DNA from: Gottschalkiaceae bacterium SANA
GTDB taxonomy: Bacteria > Bacillota > Clostridia > Tissierellales > GPF-1
Assembly (NCBI GenBank): GCA_036323355.1
Contig: AP028876.1
Location: 1,736,001-1,800,000, forward strand
DNA: 64,000 nucleotides
Direction: 5' to 3'
Shown: one piece after another, positions 43,463 through 50,488 of the stretch
How positions within the stretch are numbered: position 1 is the first letter of the stretch
Layout of the letters: the number at the start of each line of letters is the position of its first letter
Program-made: the position numbers and the translations under genes
The notes under the pieces: generated by a model
Seen by the model: only the letters and a program-made list of their open reading frames with translations
The model's database searches: none
Told to the model about the DNA's origin: nothing

Positions 43463-43538
43463 GCCCAGATAGCTCAGTCGGTAGAGCAGGGGACTGAAAA
43501 TCCCCGTGTCGGTGGTTCGATTCCGCCTCTGGGCACCA
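43463..43538 (+). tRNA. tRNA-Phe (anticodon GAA)
   Basis: A 76-base tRNA with acceptor stem GCCCAGA/TCTGGGC, D-arm AGCTCAGTCGGTAGAGC, anticodon GAA in CTGAAAA, T-loop TTCGATTC and encoded CCA. Confidence 0.97.
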
Positions 43539-43544
43539 AGTTTT

Positions 43545-43619
43545 GCGAAAGTAGCTCAGTGGTAGAGCTTCGCCTTGCCAAGGCGAAGGTCGCGAGTTCG
43601 AATCTCGTCTTTCGCTCCA
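43545..43619 (+). tRNA. tRNA-Gly (anticodon GCC)
   Basis: A 75-base tRNA with acceptor GCGAAAG/CTTTCGC, anticodon GCC in TTGCCAA, T-arm GAGTTCGAATCTC and encoded CCA. Confidence 0.97.
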
Positions 43620-43624
43620 AATAG

Positions 43625-43698
43625 GGCGCCATGGCCAAGTGGTAAGGCAGAGGACTGCAAATCCTTTACCCCCAGTTCGAATCTGGGTGGCGCCTCCA
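43625..43698 (+). tRNA. tRNA-Cys (anticodon GCA)
   Basis: A 74-base tRNA with acceptor GGCGCCA/TGGCGCC, anticodon GCA in CTGCAAA, T-arm CAGTTCGAATCTG and encoded CCA. Confidence 0.97.
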
Positions 43699-43739: not shown

Positions 43740-43769
43740 AAAAAAGCCGCAAACATATCGATTGACGGC
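43740..43769 (-). terminator. Weak terminator after the response regulator gene
   Basis: On the minus strand GCCG and CGGC form a short stem with a long loop, followed by six T. It lies downstream of the AraC-type regulator gene. Confidence 0.35.
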
Positions 43770-43788
43770 GAATCACATTTTGTAATGG

Positions 43789-43810
43789 ACACCCGTAAGG
43801 GTGTTTTTTA
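43789..43810 (+). terminator. Terminator-like hairpin facing the regulator gene
   Basis: ACACCC/GGGTGT with the loop GTAA, followed by six T on the + strand. No + strand gene lies between it and the tRNA terminator. It may be a backup terminator preventing antisense reading into the minus-strand operon. Confidence 0.5.
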
Positions 43811-44548
43811 TTTCTGACAACGGAACTGAAGCGGTGAAAATCCAGTTTGATTTTTGAATACACGACTAAAATAATGCTGACTGCTAAATCCAAGAAGCTT
43901 TGAAATTTGTAAAATAGTTATATCTGGATTTCCTAGAAGATCCTTTGCGTGTTCAATCTTGAGCTGAGTGACATAATCGATAAAGGTTTTACCGGTTTCT
44001 CTCTTGATATAATTAGCGATGCTTGTCTTACCCATGGAGAAGGTGCTTTCCAATAAAGACATACTCAATTGAGGGTCTCGATAACGGTCCTTGATATAGG
44101 CAAGAATATGCGCCTTCTGATTCGTTTGGTGGGTATCCAGTGCATGGGTGATTAAGTTCTTTTTCTGTGCTTTCTCCCGATAGGTTTCAAGAGCGGAGAG
44201 GAGGAGGTCGCGGAATTCATCGTTTTGAAAGGGTTTTAACAGATAATGATAAACCCCCAAAGAGACGGCTTTCTGGGCGTAGTCAAAGCGGTCGTAACCT
44301 GAAATGATGATGATGACGGCTTCTGGATGAATCGCTTGGATTCTTTCAATTGCTTCTAGTCCGTTAAGTTGGGGCATGTTGATATCGATCAAAACAATCT
44401 CGGGCAGGTGAATGCGCGTGGATTCCAAGGCCTCTGCTCCATTTTTCACAAGTGCACATACCTGGAGATCGATATCAAATTGTTCAATTAGTTTCGCTAT
44501 GCCGTTTCTGATTCGTTCCTCGTCATCTGCGATAAGAACTCTATACAT
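43808..44548 (-). CDS. AraC-type response regulator (YesN-like)
   Basis: This is the DNA-binding partner of the sensor kinase encoded upstream on the same strand. The 246-residue protein has a receiver domain with the acidic DDEE near the start, phosphoacceptor Asp in LIDINMP and Lys in LLKPFQ. A C-terminal pair of AraC helix-turn-helix motifs follows, with GKTSIANYIKRETG and LLGFSSQHYFSRVFK. It overlaps the kinase gene by 8 bp. The likely target is the divergent reductase gene, whose promoter region has a poor -35 box, as expected for an activated promoter. Confidence 0.92.
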   Translation of the reverse strand: MYRVLIADDEERIRNGIAKLIEQFDIDLQVCALVKNGAEALESTRIHLPEIVLIDINMPQLNGLEAIERIQAIHPEAVIIIISGYDRFDYAQKAVSLGVYHYLLKPFQNDEFRDLLLSALETYREKAQKKNLITHALDTHQTNQKAHILAYIKDRYRDPQLSMSLLESTFSMGKTSIANYIKRETGKTFIDYVTQLKIEHAKDLLGNPDITILQISKLLGFSSQHYFSRVFKNQTGFSPLQFRCQK

Positions 44549-46259
44549 GATGAAACCCTCCTTTGTTTTCTATGGGATAGTAGATGGTGGCGGTTGTGCC
44601 GTAATTTTCAATGCTTTCAATTGTCAAACCGGCACTTTGGCCGTATTTTAACTTCAGTCGCTCCAATATATTGTATATACCATAATGCTTGCTAATCATT
44701 TGCATCTCCAAATTCCTACGAATATTTTGTAGCTTTTGAGAAGGGATGCCGACACCGTTGTCTGTGACTTCAATGAAGATCAAGGATTCGTATTCATATG
44801 CTGTAATCGAAATCAATCCTTTTTTGTTCTTTGGTTTCAACCCGTGATAGAGGGCGTTTTCCACGAGTGGTTGAATCAAAATTTTCAAGGTATCAATGTG
44901 CTGGATTGAAGGTTCAATTTCAATTTGATAATCAAGAATTTCGGTATAGCGCATCTTTTGGATCTCCATATAATGACGCGCGTGATTCAGTTCTTTCCCA
45001 AGGGGAATCATTTCATTTCCGTCGCTTAAGGAGATGCGGAAGAAGGCGGATAGGGAATTGACAGCATCTGAAATCTCATAGGCTTGGTAGTCCAAAGCAA
45101 TCCATTTTAAGGTATCTAGGGTGTTATAGAGGAAGTGTGGATTGATTTGCGATTGCAGGGCACGAAGCTCTGCTTCTCGCTTGAATCCTTGTTCTGTGTA
45201 AATACGATCGATTAGATGGGAAATTTGATTCAACATACGGTTGTAAGAGGCTTCCAGATAATAAAATTCATCCTTGTGATTGCCCAAGGGGAGGCTGACT
45301 AGATTGCCTTTTTCCACTTCTCGCATATTTGCTTTTAACGCTTCTAAGGGTTGAGCAAAAGATCGTGTCAGAAAATAGGATATAAGGACAGTGAGCAATA
45401 AAAGTGCAATCCACAGCATGGCGATGTTTCGAGATAGTTCATTGCTATGGGCAAATATCTCTGAATCAGCCAAAAGAGTGCATAGGAGCCATTGGTCTGT
45501 ATTTGGAATGGTTGAATAGATCAGGGTGGAACTCATATTACGAAGATCAGACAAATGGAGAACATCGGTCTGTCGCCTTGTTTTATCATTCATCAATTCT
45601 TTAAGGGTTTCTTGAGACAAGACTTCGTGGTAGAAATAGGACTCGTTTTGTGTAAAGACTACCCCGTCTTGATTCATAATCCAGGTGATGCCATTGGATT
45701 GATTGATATCTGCCAGCATATTGATCAAGGTTTTGGTCGGGATTCCGCCATAGAGGATGCCTGTTTTTTCCCCTTTGTCATTCAGGATGGGATAATAGAT
45801 GGGGAAGATGTCCCTGTGATTGTAGGGAGAGATCTGAGGATTGTCGATGATGAATTCCTGGGTGCTGGATTTGATCTTGAGCATTGTGCTTCGGTCGATT
45901 AGTTCCAGGGTTTGTTCGCCATTGATCCAAATCTTTTGATTAATTCCGCCGACACCGAAGAATTCAGTGCTCTCTATAGAAGAAGGGCGACTGGCAAGTT
46001 CGTCGATCAGCGGTTTGATTCCGCGGATATCCATAGACTGAAAGGCTGGCAGTTCAGAGAGGACGCGAAATTCAGATATCTTTGTGAAGAACCAAAGTCC
46101 AACTTCTGAAGCTTTTGATTCCATTGCATACATGGTTTGCTCTTCTGTATATGCCATGGTGTTCCTTTCGACAGATGTCTTGACGTAGACCATCAGAATA
46201 GAAAAAACAATGGAGATACATAAGCAAAAACTAATTAGTATTCTTTTTCTGAATGTCAT
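44541..46259 (-). CDS. Sensor histidine kinase (YesM/LytS type)
   Basis: The 572-residue protein has an N-terminal membrane helix, an extracellular sensing region (about residues 35-280, Cache-like), a second helix, a HAMP segment, then a His kinase domain. That domain has the phosphorylated His in QINPHFLYNTLD, the N box VENALYHGLKP and DNGVGIP. The ATG at 46259 has GGAGG 5 bases upstream. A longer in-frame start at 46310 adds a polar stretch without a site. It probably senses an external small molecule, perhaps the acceptor used by the adjacent reductases. Confidence 0.9.
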   Translation of the reverse strand: MTFRKRILISFCLCISIVFSILMVYVKTSVERNTMAYTEEQTMYAMESKASEVGLWFFTKISEFRVLSELPAFQSMDIRGIKPLIDELASRPSSIESTEFFGVGGINQKIWINGEQTLELIDRSTMLKIKSSTQEFIIDNPQISPYNHRDIFPIYYPILNDKGEKTGILYGGIPTKTLINMLADINQSNGITWIMNQDGVVFTQNESYFYHEVLSQETLKELMNDKTRRQTDVLHLSDLRNMSSTLIYSTIPNTDQWLLCTLLADSEIFAHSNELSRNIAMLWIALLLLTVLISYFLTRSFAQPLEALKANMREVEKGNLVSLPLGNHKDEFYYLEASYNRMLNQISHLIDRIYTEQGFKREAELRALQSQINPHFLYNTLDTLKWIALDYQAYEISDAVNSLSAFFRISLSDGNEMIPLGKELNHARHYMEIQKMRYTEILDYQIEIEPSIQHIDTLKILIQPLVENALYHGLKPKNKKGLISITAYEYESLIFIEVTDNGVGIPSQKLQNIRRNLEMQMISKHYGIYNILERLKLKYGQSAGLTIESIENYGTTATIYYPIENKGGFHHV

Positions 46260-46375
46260 GGTTTCCTCCGTTTCGCCGGGTTTCTTTTCCGAGTATATCG
46301 AATCTTTCAATCCTTTGCAAGATGCGTAAAAAGAGATATAAAATCTGTTGATTCGTGTAAATACAGACTTCCTGG

Positions 46376-46388
46376 CGAATGCTATAAT
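46376..46388 (+). promoter_or_regulatory. Promoter region of the reductase gene
   Basis: TATAAT at 46383-46388 is a clear -10 box, but I see no good -35 box at the right distance. ATTCG (46351-46355) and CGAAT (46376-46380) are inverted copies upstream. This suits a promoter that needs an activator such as the adjacent AraC-type regulator. Confidence 0.45.
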
Positions 46389-46448
46389 AAATTTCAGAAA
46401 GTTTGTTTGAAAAATAACAAACTATATTCATAAGGGGGAATCAACATA

Positions 46449-48515
46449 ATGAAGAGAATTTTTGCATTGGCTTTGGCACTTATGATGGTATTTTCATTGG
46501 CGGCATGTTCAGCGAGCGAAGCGACAGCGGAGCCGGCGAAGGGGATATACCAAGCGGGTGTGTATCCTGTTACGGCAAGAGGAAATGGTGGAGACATTGA
46601 AATTGAAGTCACTTTCAGTGAAACTGAAATAACGGATATCAAGATTGTGAGTCAAAATGAAACTCAGGGACTAAGCGACGAGGTTTTTGAGAAGATGCCG
46701 ACAGCGATACTGGAGGCGCAATCGACAGAGGTTGAATCGGTATCGGGTGCATCTGTTTCTTCAGAGGCAATAAAAAAGGCTGTTGATCATGCGATTGCCA
46801 TGGCAATGGGAATCGAAATCGAATCAGAAGTCGTTGACGGCGTATATAAGGGAAGCGCCGAAGGAAAAGGCGGACTGTTAACGGTTGAAGTTACAATTGA
46901 AAACGGAGCGATTCAGGATATTCAAGTGGTTGAATCTCATGAAACCATTGGTTTCGACCGATCGTTCAAATTGGTGAGAAAAGCCATATTGGAGTCAAAT
47001 AGTACAGATGTTGACACAGTTGCCAGCGCAACCTTGGCATCGGGTGCCATGATTCGGGCAACAATCGCTGCCTTGGAAGAAGCGGGATTCGCTGATCGGT
47101 TTGCTGAAGCGGCGGGCGGAGTGTCGATTACTGATCTACCAAAAGAGCAGACAGCTGATGTCATTATCATCGGTGCAGGCGGTGCAGGCGTTAATGCGGC
47201 GGTTGAAGCAATGGCTGCGGGAGCAGAAGTCATTGTGCTGGAAAAAGCACCGGTTCCTGGAGGCAATACGAAGTTGACGGATGGGGTATTGAATGCCTCT
47301 GAAACAACATACCAGGATGAAGAAGGTATTGTTGACCAAAACAATTCATTCTTTGAAGATACAATGGCAGGTGGCGACCGTATCAACAATCCGGATTTAG
47401 TCCATACACTAGCAGAGAATTCTGCAGAAGCATACCAGTACTATAAAGATGTTGTTGGGGTCAAATGGTATATGTTGAACCGCGCGGGAGGACATTCTCA
47501 AACACGTTCTCATTATGCAGAGGGTGAAGGTGCACAACTTTTTGAAACGCTGTTTAATTATGCCTTGAATCAAGGAATCAATGTGAACTACAATACGCAA
47601 GCAGTTGAAATTTTGAAAGATGATACAGGTGCGGTTACGGGCGTAAAAGCAATTCGAAACGGAGAAGACGTATTCTATTATGCCAACCGAGCGGTAGTGC
47701 TTGCCACCGGTGGATTCGGTAGAAATCAAGATCTGTTGAAAGAATTTGATCCCAATTATGTGGAGGGTGCATTATGTACCAATAGTGTATTGAGCACAGG
47801 CGACGGTGTTGGCTTAGCACGTGAAGCTGGTGCGAATTTGGTTGGCATGACCTATATCCAAAAACATCCAACTTGTGATGTCGTGACTGGAGAATTGATT
47901 TCTAGTGCCAATTCCGGACGAGGTCTTGGTACAACAGTCATGGTCAACAAAGAAGGGCAACGTTATGTGGAAGAATTAGAGCGACGTGATGTCATCTCGA
48001 TTGCGACCGGCAAACAAACGGGTGGAATCTCTTATTCTTTCTTCGATCAAAATGCAGCGGATGAAACGGGATTTTTCGATAAGTTTGGTGAAGAACTTGC
48101 ACATCTTGAAGCGACGGGTCAGATGGTGAAAGCAGATACGGTAGAGGAAGCTTGTGAATTCTATGGGATCGATCTAGATAGCTTCAAGGCGACCATTGAA
48201 CGTTACAATGGTTTCGCTCAAGCGGGAGAAGATCTTGACTTCCAACGAAGAAATGGGCTGAGAGAATATAGCCTGTCAGAGGGACCCTTCTATTTCATCC
48301 AATCGTCACCAGCCATTCATCATACAATGGGTGGGGTGGAGATTAACGTGAATACCCAAGTGATCGGGATAGATGGTGAAATTCTTCCGCATTTCTTTGC
48401 GGCAGGTGAAGTCACAGGCGGGGTACATGGTTCCAATCGCCTGGGCGGAAATGCCATTACAGACATTACGGTATTTGGTCGCATTGCAGGACAAAACGCT
48501 GCACAAGAAAAATAA
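46449..48515 (+). CDS. Flavinylated surface fumarate-reductase-like lipoprotein (two FMN-binding domains)
   Basis: The 688-residue lipoprotein (lipobox LAAC, Cys20) carries two FMN-binding domains, about residues 33-120 and 138-220. The first has a canonical covalent-FMN motif, SGAS (S102). The second has ASAT (T195) instead of SGAT. The C-terminal FAD-dependent reductase domain (about 235-688) has the dinucleotide site IIGAGGAGVNAAVEA. It also has counterparts of all fumarate reductase catalytic residues: H473 in KHPT, R513 in ERRD, the HHTMGG His pair (624-625) and R664 in NRLGG. It should reduce an external acceptor using electrons passed through FMN. Confidence 0.88.
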   Translation: MKRIFALALALMMVFSLAACSASEATAEPAKGIYQAGVYPVTARGNGGDIEIEVTFSETEITDIKIVSQNETQGLSDEVFEKMPTAILEAQSTEVESVSGASVSSEAIKKAVDHAIAMAMGIEIESEVVDGVYKGSAEGKGGLLTVEVTIENGAIQDIQVVESHETIGFDRSFKLVRKAILESNSTDVDTVASATLASGAMIRATIAALEEAGFADRFAEAAGGVSITDLPKEQTADVIIIGAGGAGVNAAVEAMAAGAEVIVLEKAPVPGGNTKLTDGVLNASETTYQDEEGIVDQNNSFFEDTMAGGDRINNPDLVHTLAENSAEAYQYYKDVVGVKWYMLNRAGGHSQTRSHYAEGEGAQLFETLFNYALNQGINVNYNTQAVEILKDDTGAVTGVKAIRNGEDVFYYANRAVVLATGGFGRNQDLLKEFDPNYVEGALCTNSVLSTGDGVGLAREAGANLVGMTYIQKHPTCDVVTGELISSANSGRGLGTTVMVNKEGQRYVEELERRDVISIATGKQTGGISYSFFDQNAADETGFFDKFGEELAHLEATGQMVKADTVEEACEFYGIDLDSFKATIERYNGFAQAGEDLDFQRRNGLREYSLSEGPFYFIQSSPAIHHTMGGVEINVNTQVIGIDGEILPHFFAAGEVTGGVHGSNRLGGNAITDITVFGRIAGQNAAQEK

Positions 48516-48522
48516 GAAACGA

Positions 48523-48550
48523 GGGCTGCCCATGCAGCCCTTTATTTGTT
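48523..48550 (+). terminator. Terminator after the first reductase gene
   Basis: GGGCTGC/GCAGCCC with the loop CCAT, followed by a T-rich tract. Confidence 0.8.
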
Positions 48551-48564
48551 TTTACCGTTTCCCA

Positions 48565-48573
48565 TGATACAAT
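48565..48573 (+). promoter_or_regulatory. Extended -10 promoter of the second reductase gene
   Basis: TGATACAAT is an extended -10 box about 30 bases before the start codon. Confidence 0.45.
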
Positions 48574-48602
48574 ACATTATTGAATGAAAGGGAGGAGTGC
48601 GC

Positions 48603-50384
48603 GTGAAGCGATGGATCATATTGCTGTTTATAATAGCTAGTGTCATGATGACGGGGTGTGAGACCGTTGAATATGCGATTCCATTTTCGGAAGGTGGTAG
48701 ATTTACTGGATGTGCAACCGGATATGTGGAAGAAATCACAATTGAACTTGTTGTTCAAAATGGCGCGATTATCGAAATTGACTCATTGGGTGTAAACGAG
48801 TCCTTTTCCTTGGCAGAGCAGGCCAAGGATGAAATCTTCGAAAGGATTATTTCCAATCAAGTGTTGCCGGCTGAAGCGGTATCGGGTGCGACGACGACAT
48901 CTCTCGCTTTGATTGAAGCTGTGGAGGCGGCCATTGTTGCAGCGGGAATGGAGCCAGCCTATTTTAAACAGGCAAGTATCAAGGCCATAGAGGAAGAAAT
49001 TCATCAAGATCAGACATTTGATATTGTTGTAATTGGGGGAGGCGCAGCTGGACTTGCAGCTGCAGTCGAGGCATCCCTTCAAGGGAAAAGTGTAATTTTA
49101 ATTGAAAAGCTTCCTTTCGTTGGCGGAAATACAGCCCTATCAGGTGGTGAAATGTCCGTGCCTGGAAGCGATTTACAAAAGCAGCTTGGAATTGAGGATG
49201 ATGTAGATACGATGATCGGAGATATCTATGCCGGAGGCAGAAAAACCGGCAAATTGGAGTTAATTCAAACGTTTTGTGAAAATATCAATTCGACGCTCCA
49301 ATGGCTTGAGGAAACAATTGGAGTCGAATATCAGACGCGAGTCTATACGGTGAGCGGACATTCAGTTCCAAGGACGGTGATCCCCATAGGTTTAGGAGCG
49401 GGTATTGTAGATCGGCTTCTTTTCCTTGCTGAAAGTAATGGTGTCCAGGTGATTTACAATGCAAAGGCGACAGACATCATGATTGATGAGACAGGTCGTG
49501 TATTTGGGGTTTATGCAACCGTGAATTCTCAAGAGCATCGTATTTTTGCAAGGGAAAAAACGATTCTTGCTAGCGGTGGATTCAGTGCCAATGTAGAAAT
49601 GAGGGAACACTACAACACCCAATGGGCATCCCTGGGTAGCGAAGTGTTGACATCAAATTCTCCTGGAATTACTGGGGATGGAATTTTAATGGCGGAAAAA
49701 ATTGGAGCAAAATTAATTGATATGGAATTTATTCAACTCTTTCCGTACAACAATCCAGCATCGGGGAAACACTATTATCTGGATAATATTCGTGCAAGCG
49801 CTGGAGCCTTTTTTGTGAATCAAGAGGGCGAGCGCTTTGTGAATGAAGACGAGGTGCGAGATATCGTCGCAGGCCGGATTCTCGAGCAAACGGCGCAGAC
49901 GAGCTATGAGATCTTTACTCAAAGTATAATCGATACCCTTTCGGATGATCCGGTTGCCTTGGAAGAAGTTGAAAGGTGGTTAAATCAAGGCGTGCTAATT
50001 AAACGCGACACAATCCAAGAATGCGCAGCATATTTCGGTGTGAATAAACATGAGATACAGAAAACGCTTGATCAATATAATCAATATATTGTAAATGGAA
50101 AAGATGAGGCATTCGATCGAACACTTGGTTTTAAACCCTTGTTGAATGGACCTTTCTATATGTTGGAGGGGGTTCCGTCGGTGCATTACACAATGGGCGG
50201 TGTTGCCATCACTCAACATGCTGAGGTGGTAAACACGGAAGGAAATATCATCCCGGGTTTTTACGCTGCAGGTGAGGTGACCGGAGGTATTCATGGTGAA
50301 AACCGTTTGGGTGCTTGTGCAGTCCCAGACGCCCTGGTCTTTGGGAGAATCGCAGGCGGATACGCACCTGTTCTAGAAGATTAG
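48603..50384 (+). CDS. Flavinylated surface reductase-like lipoprotein (one FMN-binding domain), altered active site
   Basis: The 593-residue lipoprotein (lipobox MTGC, Cys19) has one FMN-binding domain (about residues 30-115) with a canonical SGAT motif (T97). An FAD-dependent reductase domain like that of the preceding gene follows. The dinucleotide motif VVIGGGAAGLAAAVEA, the EVRD Arg, the HYTMGG His and the NRLG Arg are kept. The position of the His in KHPT is Phe380 (QLFPY), and NRLGGNA is NRLGACA. The substrate is therefore probably not fumarate. The GTG at 48603 has GGGAGGAG 5 bases upstream, and a GTG at 48597 is less likely. Confidence 0.86.
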   Translation: MKRWIILLFIIASVMMTGCETVEYAIPFSEGGRFTGCATGYVEEITIELVVQNGAIIEIDSLGVNESFSLAEQAKDEIFERIISNQVLPAEAVSGATTTSLALIEAVEAAIVAAGMEPAYFKQASIKAIEEEIHQDQTFDIVVIGGGAAGLAAAVEASLQGKSVILIEKLPFVGGNTALSGGEMSVPGSDLQKQLGIEDDVDTMIGDIYAGGRKTGKLELIQTFCENINSTLQWLEETIGVEYQTRVYTVSGHSVPRTVIPIGLGAGIVDRLLFLAESNGVQVIYNAKATDIMIDETGRVFGVYATVNSQEHRIFAREKTILASGGFSANVEMREHYNTQWASLGSEVLTSNSPGITGDGILMAEKIGAKLIDMEFIQLFPYNNPASGKHYYLDNIRASAGAFFVNQEGERFVNEDEVRDIVAGRILEQTAQTSYEIFTQSIIDTLSDDPVALEEVERWLNQGVLIKRDTIQECAAYFGVNKHEIQKTLDQYNQYIVNGKDEAFDRTLGFKPLLNGPFYMLEGVPSVHYTMGGVAITQHAEVVNTEGNIIPGFYAAGEVTGGIHGENRLGACAVPDALVFGRIAGGYAPVLED

Positions 50385-50488
50385 ATCATCGTTCAATCCA
50401 GCAAAGAGTTGGTTTGATAAAAAACACTAGACAAATAGGGAACGGTTTGATAGACTACTTCTGGTAGCAGAATTGGTTCAAATATCAT

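Follow-up and report, generated by a model that had tools for sequence, protein, structure and literature searches.

Surface reductases that join an FMN_bind domain to a fumarate-reductase-like FAD_binding_2 domain are already known in bacteria, as are multi-FMN proteins of this kind and genomes with several paralogues, and many enzymes of the superfamily have unknown substrates (PMC8238504). Among the closest described systems is FrdA of Listeria monocytogenes, a surface reductase of the FMN_bind plus FAD_binding_2 type whose electron-transfer genes lie elsewhere in the genome, as they do for the characterised FMN-type fumarate and urocanate reductases (PMC8238504). Here, we describe a locus at positions 43808-50384 of a 64,000-nucleotide stretch of DNA (the window) from the anaerobe Gottschalkiaceae bacterium SANA. 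It consists of four open reading frames (ORFs), namely, those for an AraC-type response regulator (RR), a dCache-type histidine kinase (HK) and two divergently transcribed lipoproteins, R1 and R2. R1 and R2 share the FrdA domain type, and genes resembling the Listeria Ndh2/Eet/FmnB chain (Ndh2-like, EetA/EetB-like, PplA-like and ApbE) are also present in this genome; unlike Listeria FrdA, the locus here has an adjacent two-component system, two reductases and a doubled FMN arm in R1. The enzymes are members of a known family, and the arrangement, in which two enzymes of different descent come with one sensor and a shared switch, is a variant of it. The open-access literature searched yielded no description of sensor-reductase cassettes that share an operator, which is not proof of absence. 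Larger arsenals of such reductases in gut bacteria are reportedly described in a 2024 Nature Microbiology paper.

The gene content proposed in the initial annotation, i.e., a YesM/YesN-type pair divergent from two FMN-binding, fumarate-reductase-like lipoproteins, agrees with both the ORFs and the Pfam matches, and a chance origin of this four-gene observation is excluded. The features of the locus and its flanks are as follows.

43463-43698, plus strand: array of tRNA-Phe, tRNA-Gly and tRNA-Cys, left flank of the cassette (ARAGORN)
43745-50487: stretch missing from the same site in both congeners (genomes G001 and G002; outer limits, the right edge may be at about 50415; blastn)
43808-44548, minus strand: RR, receiver plus AraC-type HTH_18, YesN-like, 246 aa (ORF list, Pfam)
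44541-46310, minus strand: HK, YesM-like, with dCache-type sensor, HAMP, His_kinase and HATPase_c, 589 aa (ORF list, Pfam, model)
46337-46342, plus strand: weak upstream half-site TATAAA, 5/6 to TGYAAA, at offset 19 and not 20
46356-46388, plus strand: candidate promoter/operator TGTAAATACA-N17-TATAAT, common to paralogous reductase loci (exact match)
46400-46423: inverted repeat with perfect 8-bp arms, AGTTTGTT-N8-AACAAACT, after the promoter and ahead of the R1 start (fold z -1.7)
46449-48515, plus strand: R1, lipoprotein, 688 aa, two FMN_bind plus FAD_binding_2 (ORF list, Pfam)
46581-46796, plus strand: R1 FMN_bind domain 1 (genome 1782581-1782796)
46863-47078, plus strand: R1 FMN_bind domain 2 (genome 1782863-1783078)
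47157-48455, plus strand: R1 FAD_binding_2 reductase domain (genome 1783157-1784455)
48521-48542, plus strand: terminator-like hairpin between R1 and R2
48597-50384, plus strand: R2, lipoprotein, 595 aa, one FMN_bind plus FAD_binding_2 (ORF list, Pfam); the start is probably GTG at 48603 rather than 48597
48720-48935, plus strand: R2 FMN_bind domain (genome 1784720-1784935)
49020-50321, plus strand: R2 FAD_binding_2 reductase domain (genome 1785020-1786321)

We consider it probable, at roughly two chances in three, that the locus is a sensor-gated anaerobic respiration cassette whose two reductases act on different substrates. The outward dCache domain of the kinase would detect a small molecule, most likely the acceptor of R1 or R2 or a co-occurring compound, and the phosphorylated AraC-type regulator would bind TGYAAA-type half-sites overlapping the -35 region before R1 and turn R1 on. 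R2 would be expressed at a lower level, either through transcripts that run past the hairpin or from its own weak promoter. Both enzymes would be exported and anchored as lipoproteins, with FMN put on Ser/Thr by the single ApbE/FmnB of the genome, and electrons would pass from NADH via Ndh2, quinone and EetA/EetB (possibly from an Rnf or Nqr-like set) to FMN and on to FAD. There, a hydride, together with a proton from the conserved Arg, would reduce the C=C bond of an α,β-unsaturated carboxylate. R1 (with a fumarate-type His and an Asn near the helix) and R2 (with Phe at that place, from the 'QLxPxNNP' clade) would take different substrates, so that the cell could probably dump electrons onto two different unsaturated acids.

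The reductase assignment is carried by curated family models. Pfam gives FAD_binding_2 at 1.1e-72 plus two FMN_bind stretches for R1, and FAD_binding_2 at 2.7e-76 plus FMN_bind at 8.5e-07 for R2, and both proteins exceed the cut-off of the NCBIfam flavocytochrome c model TIGR01813 (430 and 410.3 bits; cut-off 285.45). The earlier reading of both as flavinylation-type reductases thus stands, refined in that R1 has two FMN domains. For R1 and R2 alike, the closest solved relative by sequence is the urocanate reductase UrdA of Shewanella oneidensis (structures 6t85-6t88), and UrdA is also the closest by fold to the predicted model of R2 (6t86, TM-score 0.92 on target and 0.71 on query). The N-termini of both proteins read as a signal-like stretch followed by a lipobox Cys, which is invariant in 32/32 aligned reductases. 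The flavinylation motif is D-x-x-[S/T]-G-A-[S/T], in which Thr is preferred over Ser and an Asp-to-Ala change has a minor effect (PMC12052999); an [S/T]GA[S/T]-type definition is also given in PMC8238504. R2 carries EAVSGAT, with Thr99 as the expected acceptor (595-aa numbering), and R1 carries ESVSGAS (expected acceptor Ser102) and the variant motif DTVASAT (expected acceptor Thr195). Going by the published motif preferences, the R2 motif looks like a good flavinylation substrate, site 1 of R1 like a fair one and site 2 like a variant (PMC12052999).

To compare the active sites, pocket residues were read in UrdA numbering from an alignment with UrdA and Fcc, and again from a larger one of 55 rows; Listeria FrdA itself is outside the alignment. 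Arg411, His520 and Arg560, which are substrate contacts in UrdA (PMC7921117), are retained in both R1 and R2, and R2 also shares Glu177. The rest of the pocket reads V177 N243 A245 H373 A387 N388 S389 R390 G391, H521 G563 N564 in R1 and, in the larger alignment, E177 Y243 V245 F373 D387 N388 I389 R390 A391, Y521 A563 C564 in R2, for which the smaller alignment places positions 390-391 differently. In total, 10 of the 15 listed positions differ between R1 and R2 in the larger alignment, which bears out the earlier claim that their active sites differ. Tyr373 marks UrdA against the His of fumarate reductases, and position 388 is Asp, Asn or Gln in UrdAs of gut bacteria (PMC7921117). Unlike UrdA, R1 has His and R2 has Phe at 373, and both have an Asn aligned with Asp388, although loop lengths differ and the neighbours of this Asn are placed differently by the two alignments.

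The flavocytochrome c3 fumarate reductase (Fcc3) shares the reductase fold and the catalytic Arg/His with R1 and R2, in which FMN domains replace its haem domain. Arg402, His504 and the Arg of NRLG are retained in both; however, the Fcc3 set (His365, Glu378, Arg381, Arg402, His504, Arg of NRLGG) is incomplete in each, so that neither has a full fumarate pocket. R1 retains His365 and groups with the Fcc3 type, and it lacks Glu378. It can be regarded as a mixed pocket, since it combines a fumarate-type His with a UrdA-type Asn without the proton-path Glu of fumarate reductases. In R2, His365 is missing and position 505 is Tyr, as in the engineered mutant 1ksu (judging by the structure title); its pocket fully matches neither the UrdA nor the fumarate type. 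Both enzymes are predicted to reduce α,β-unsaturated carboxylates, with substrates that differ, and any specific names would be guesswork. Elsewhere, a reductase with its own kinase (L046:7147-9006) has a UrdA-like pocket (Glu177, Tyr373, Asp388, Arg390, Phe391) and is a candidate urocanate reductase.

The two regulatory genes have the make-up of a YesM/YesN-type pair, i.e., His_kinase (PF06580) and HATPase_c with an outward sensor on the one hand and a receiver with an AraC-type helix-turn-helix (HTH) domain on the other. RR matches Response_reg (8.5e-25) and HTH_18 (7.3e-17), and HK matches His_kinase (3.2e-27) and HATPase_c (3.2e-08), with HAMP and dCache_1 just under Pfam's own cut-offs. 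The predicted model of the HK sensor stretch has a dCache fold (mean pLDDT 77.7) that resembles dCache domains of chemoreceptors and kinases, e.g., Mlp24, Tlp3, PctA and KinD. Judging from its paralogues, HK probably starts at an internal Met downstream of the TTG. In one of the congeners (G002, the metagenome-assembled genome GPF-1), the kinase of the 402-kb type (named, like the loci below, by its position in the genome) is split into two frames near a contig end (L115:8922-10600).

Such kinases and such reductases also stand side by side outside the window. The genome (G000) holds 8 FMN plus FAD reductases in 7 loci, and 5 of the 7, namely, those at 402, 466, 757 and 893 kb and the window, adjoin a YesM-type kinase and regulator; a CitA/CitB-like pair (by reading) adjoins the reductase at 2773 kb, and the 1314-kb locus is without a two-component pair. 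When 47 stretches were scanned with a model built from the five kinases of this genome, such a kinase was found beside a reductase in 14 (G000 5, G001 3, G002 4, and 2 in a further relative, G023), and in none of 22 stretches from other genomes. Stretches L192, L197 and L198 likewise hold a kinase with two reductases, in a gene order unlike that of the window, so that two reductases per kinase occur in 4/17 modules (these three plus the 14 of the scan). This recurrence favours a functional pairing. In L197 and L198, one of the two reductases has two flavinylation-type motifs. L198, from Clostridium jeddahtimonense, has the same kinase type, and its double-motif reductase has the length of R1; unlike in the window, the second reductase gene of L198 lies behind the regulator gene, on the same strand as the kinase.

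Within the genus, reductase orthologues are 90.0-94.5% identical (9 pairs compared). No orthologue of the cassette was found in 60 relatives (E <= 1e-60) or in 391 genomes of the class (cuts 1e-125 and 1e-135), with identities at the best-scoring places of at most 44% for R1 and 43% for R2 in both searches, and a scan of named genomes with R2 gave no relative among 16 pattern matches. The closest R1 paralogue is the 402-kb reductase (44%). R2 shows 44% identity over 568 columns to L192 and 46% over 461 columns to L196, two loci brought in by the 466-kb reductase, and about 42-43% to a reductase of L198 and to that of Holdemania filiformis (L193:6001-7791), whose 13.8-kb stretch gave no kinase match. 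A further locus, L049:3336-8898, holds a fumarate-type flavinylated reductase, a CitA/CitB-like pair (by reading) and a second FAD_binding_2 protein without an FMN domain; its two reductases recur in G002 (L120) and in G001 (L113, cut by the contig end).

The proposed switch lies upstream of R1, where TGTAAATACA is followed after 17 bases by TATAAT, in the same layout as before the 402-, 466- and 893-kb reductases and in relatives. The pattern TGYAAATACA-N17-TANNNT is thus present at four of the five kinase-bearing loci. It was searched in four genomes, with the reversed pattern as control, and 9 of 12 exact matches precede flavinylated reductases with a kinase (G000 4/5, G001 2/2, G002 2/3, G023 1/2). 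The other three lie away from known reductases, at G000:C1:3449218-3449250, G002:C96:85-117 (contig end) and G023:C43:27316-27348. A second half-site 20 bp upstream scores a mean of 4.86/6 over 7 loci, which 0/2000 shuffles reach (best shuffle-wise mean 3.0). Between R1 and R2, the hairpin at 48521-48542 has a dG of -18.1 kcal/mol (z -5.06) and a T-rich tail, and R1 and R2 may therefore not be a plain operon. Taken together, the 9 terminators found by the scan are no enrichment over shuffled sequence (6.3 expected, sd 2.4). A sigma-70 scan listed no promoter in the R1-R2 gap, which says little because the TATAAT promoter of R1 was also unlisted. From this arrangement, we infer that R1 is the main target of the switch and that R2 receives less.

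The initial annotation had left the electron source open and had made its reading depend on a flavin transferase and extracellular electron-transfer genes being found in the genome, and the search for them yielded both. A single ApbE match passes the Pfam cut-off, and it lies within an extracellular electron-transfer locus (L039:1-9868, i.e., G000:C1:950001-959868) whose gene order is like that of Listeria. One strand carries matches to UbiX, UbiA, UbiD, polyprenyl synthase, Hpre_diP_synt_I (EetB-like), NusG_II (EetA-like) and Pyr_redox_2 (Ndh2-like), and the other carries a PplA-like gene (weak FMN_bind, 26.2 bits against 22) and then ApbE at the end of the gene run. No family model bears the names EetA, EetB, Ndh2 and PplA, which we take to apply here from domains, order and likeness. 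With names so assigned, the gene set of the Listeria flavin-based extracellular electron-transfer (FLEET) system (ndh2, eetA, eetB, quinone genes, pplA and fmnB) is found together. An rnf set (L040:5704-10616) and an Nqr/Rnf-like set (L041:6966-10837, with D-, G-, E- and A-type subunits and an NqrF-like 2Fe-2S/FAD protein), both named by reading of translations, provide further candidate sources, and their G-type subunits match FMN_bind. That electrons come mainly from these FMN-bearing sets and not from the Ndh2/Eet chain would fit their presence, and yet we regard it as unlikely: apbE sits in the Eet-like locus, and the flavinylated fumarate reductase of Listeria draws its electrons from the Ndh2 chain.

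Phylogenetic trees point to different origins for the two reductases. In a 55-row tree, R2 falls in a clade (100/98) with the 466-kb type, Holdemania-type proteins and reductases of L192, L197 and L198, which is characterised by 'QLxPxNNP' and by a Cys, Val or Leu where NRLGGN normally has Asn. R1, unplaced in an earlier first tree, groups with fumarate-type enzymes (100/98; 99/98 in a 30-row tree without Fcc). A recent duplication that would make R1 and R2 sisters is rejected (p-AU 0.0026). A clade of R1 with the double-motif enzymes of L197 and L198 is rejected as well (p-AU 9e-05), i.e., the doubled FMN arm in L198 is not that of R1 by descent. A position of R1 on the UrdA side receives a p-AU of 0.029, and one within the R2 clade is not strictly rejected (p-AU 0.055). 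The kinase joins those of the 466-kb type, L192, L197 and L198 (99/98), and R1, R2 and the kinase are all long branches. In Mantel tests over 7 modules, distances of the kinase sensor correlated with those of the reductases (for R1, r 0.66, a value that 118 of 5040 permutations attain; for R2, r 0.69, attained by 76), as did those of the kinase catalytic half and the regulator (r 0.59-0.64; 173-197 of 5040); this is not taken as main evidence, because one orthologous pair (402 kb and L121) has a large influence and R1 and R2 behave nearly alike.

A number of observations speak against a sensor-gated cassette as proposed here. Site 1 of R1 has Glu for Asp and a Ser acceptor, and site 2 has A-S in place of [S/T]-G. 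The EetA-type marker NusG_II occurs in 60/60 relatives and was useless for separating genomes with and without reductases, so that the presence of Eet-like genes is no test of their link to R1 and R2. As for the switch, with up to one mismatch the pattern and its reversed control give 20/16 matches in G000, 15/5 in G001, 19/11 in G002 and 98/29 in G023. The upstream half-site of the window scores 2/6 at offset 20, reaching 5/6 only at 19, and that of the 466-kb locus 3/6 at offset 20. Moreover, the enrichment of the element is partly circular and its independence overstated, because the pattern was drawn up from these very loci, which are related to one another. The 757-kb locus departs from the element, the L116 stretch is without it, and no element was found before R2. 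Regarding descent, the regulator is unplaced in its own tree, where the L121 and 402-kb types are nearest, and it is closer in identity to the 402-kb type (44%) than to the 466-kb type (41%). The same holds for the kinase catalytic half (46% against 38%), and the best BLAST kinase is the 402-kb one; only the kinase sensor is nearer the 466-kb type (37% against 29%). The kinase-R2 link rests on trees, with which these identities conflict, indicating that either the 466-kb kinases changed fast or the cassette is a patchwork.

These observations bear on the rather unlikely possibility that the kinase controls R1 only and that R2 is an independently or constitutively expressed passenger. The element before R1 alone and the terminator-like hairpin would suit a passenger, as would a regulator and kinase catalytic half nearest by identity to those of the 402-kb type, in which R1, too, has its closest paralogue. 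Against this, the kinase tree places HK with the kinases of R2's clade, and the R1-R2 gap is without a listed strong promoter (in a scan that misses that of R1 too). Of the earlier suggestion that two acceptors may be sensed by one kinase, the differing active sites are borne out, and control of both enzymes by one kinase is plausible only.

Another possibility is that R1 and R2 serve one pathway and reduce either a common acceptor or consecutive ones (isomers, or a di-unsaturated acid in two steps), with one kinase that senses that compound. Two reductases with one YesM/YesN pair recur in L192, L197 and L198, and in L197 and L198 the two partners fall in one clade with nearly the same pocket letters, as suits a single substrate class at those loci. 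In the window, however, the different clades and divergent pockets of R1 and R2 make a common pathway quite improbable. Least probable is that R1 and R2 detoxify or scavenge compounds such as inhibitory plant phenolic acids without supporting respiration, as might be said of a superfamily whose substrates include xenobiotics and of four genes among which none is for energy coupling. The characterised extracytosolic fumarate, urocanate and methacrylate reductases, in contrast, act in respiration (PMC8238504).

The cassette may have been gained at this site. In blastn comparisons with G001 and G002, the homologous DNA includes the tRNA array, ends at 43743-43744 and begins again at 50488, and the congeners have 78 and 130 bp between the two ends; a 33-bp match at 50420-50452 is seen in G002 only. 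The flanking genes, HslO and InfC by reading, are 608 and 660 bases apart in G001 and G002 and 7274 here (matched ends). Three species of the genus were compared, without a syntenic outgroup, and in G023 the flanking genes lie on different contigs. Gain of the cassette here is the simpler reading than loss in two congeners. Composition does not show horizontal gain, with a G+C of 41-46% in the four genes and 42% in the whole window. A search for direct repeats of 9-14 bp spanning the junctions found none, and no ORF among the four cassette genes is integrase-like.

More tentatively, and more likely wrong than right, such loci may form an exchangeable respiration kit, i.e., cassettes that each bring a sensor, an operator and one or two reductases for the cell surface (here gained beside tRNA genes) and that swap the acceptor without touching the electron chain. 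The R2 class would then use an acceptor that is neither fumarate nor urocanate, and one kinase would drive two enzyme classes. Should such cassettes come with a sensor of their own and a promoter that can be recognised, the acceptor could be found by what induces that promoter, and the shared element allows such loci to be catalogued in related anaerobes. The R2 acceptor may matter for gut chemistry, because the gut bacterium Holdemania filiformis has a protein in R2's clade. Lastly, the stretch L042:8184-14298 codes, by reading, for an FMN_bind protein and, after it, for lipoprotein-like proteins and an ECF-type transporter.

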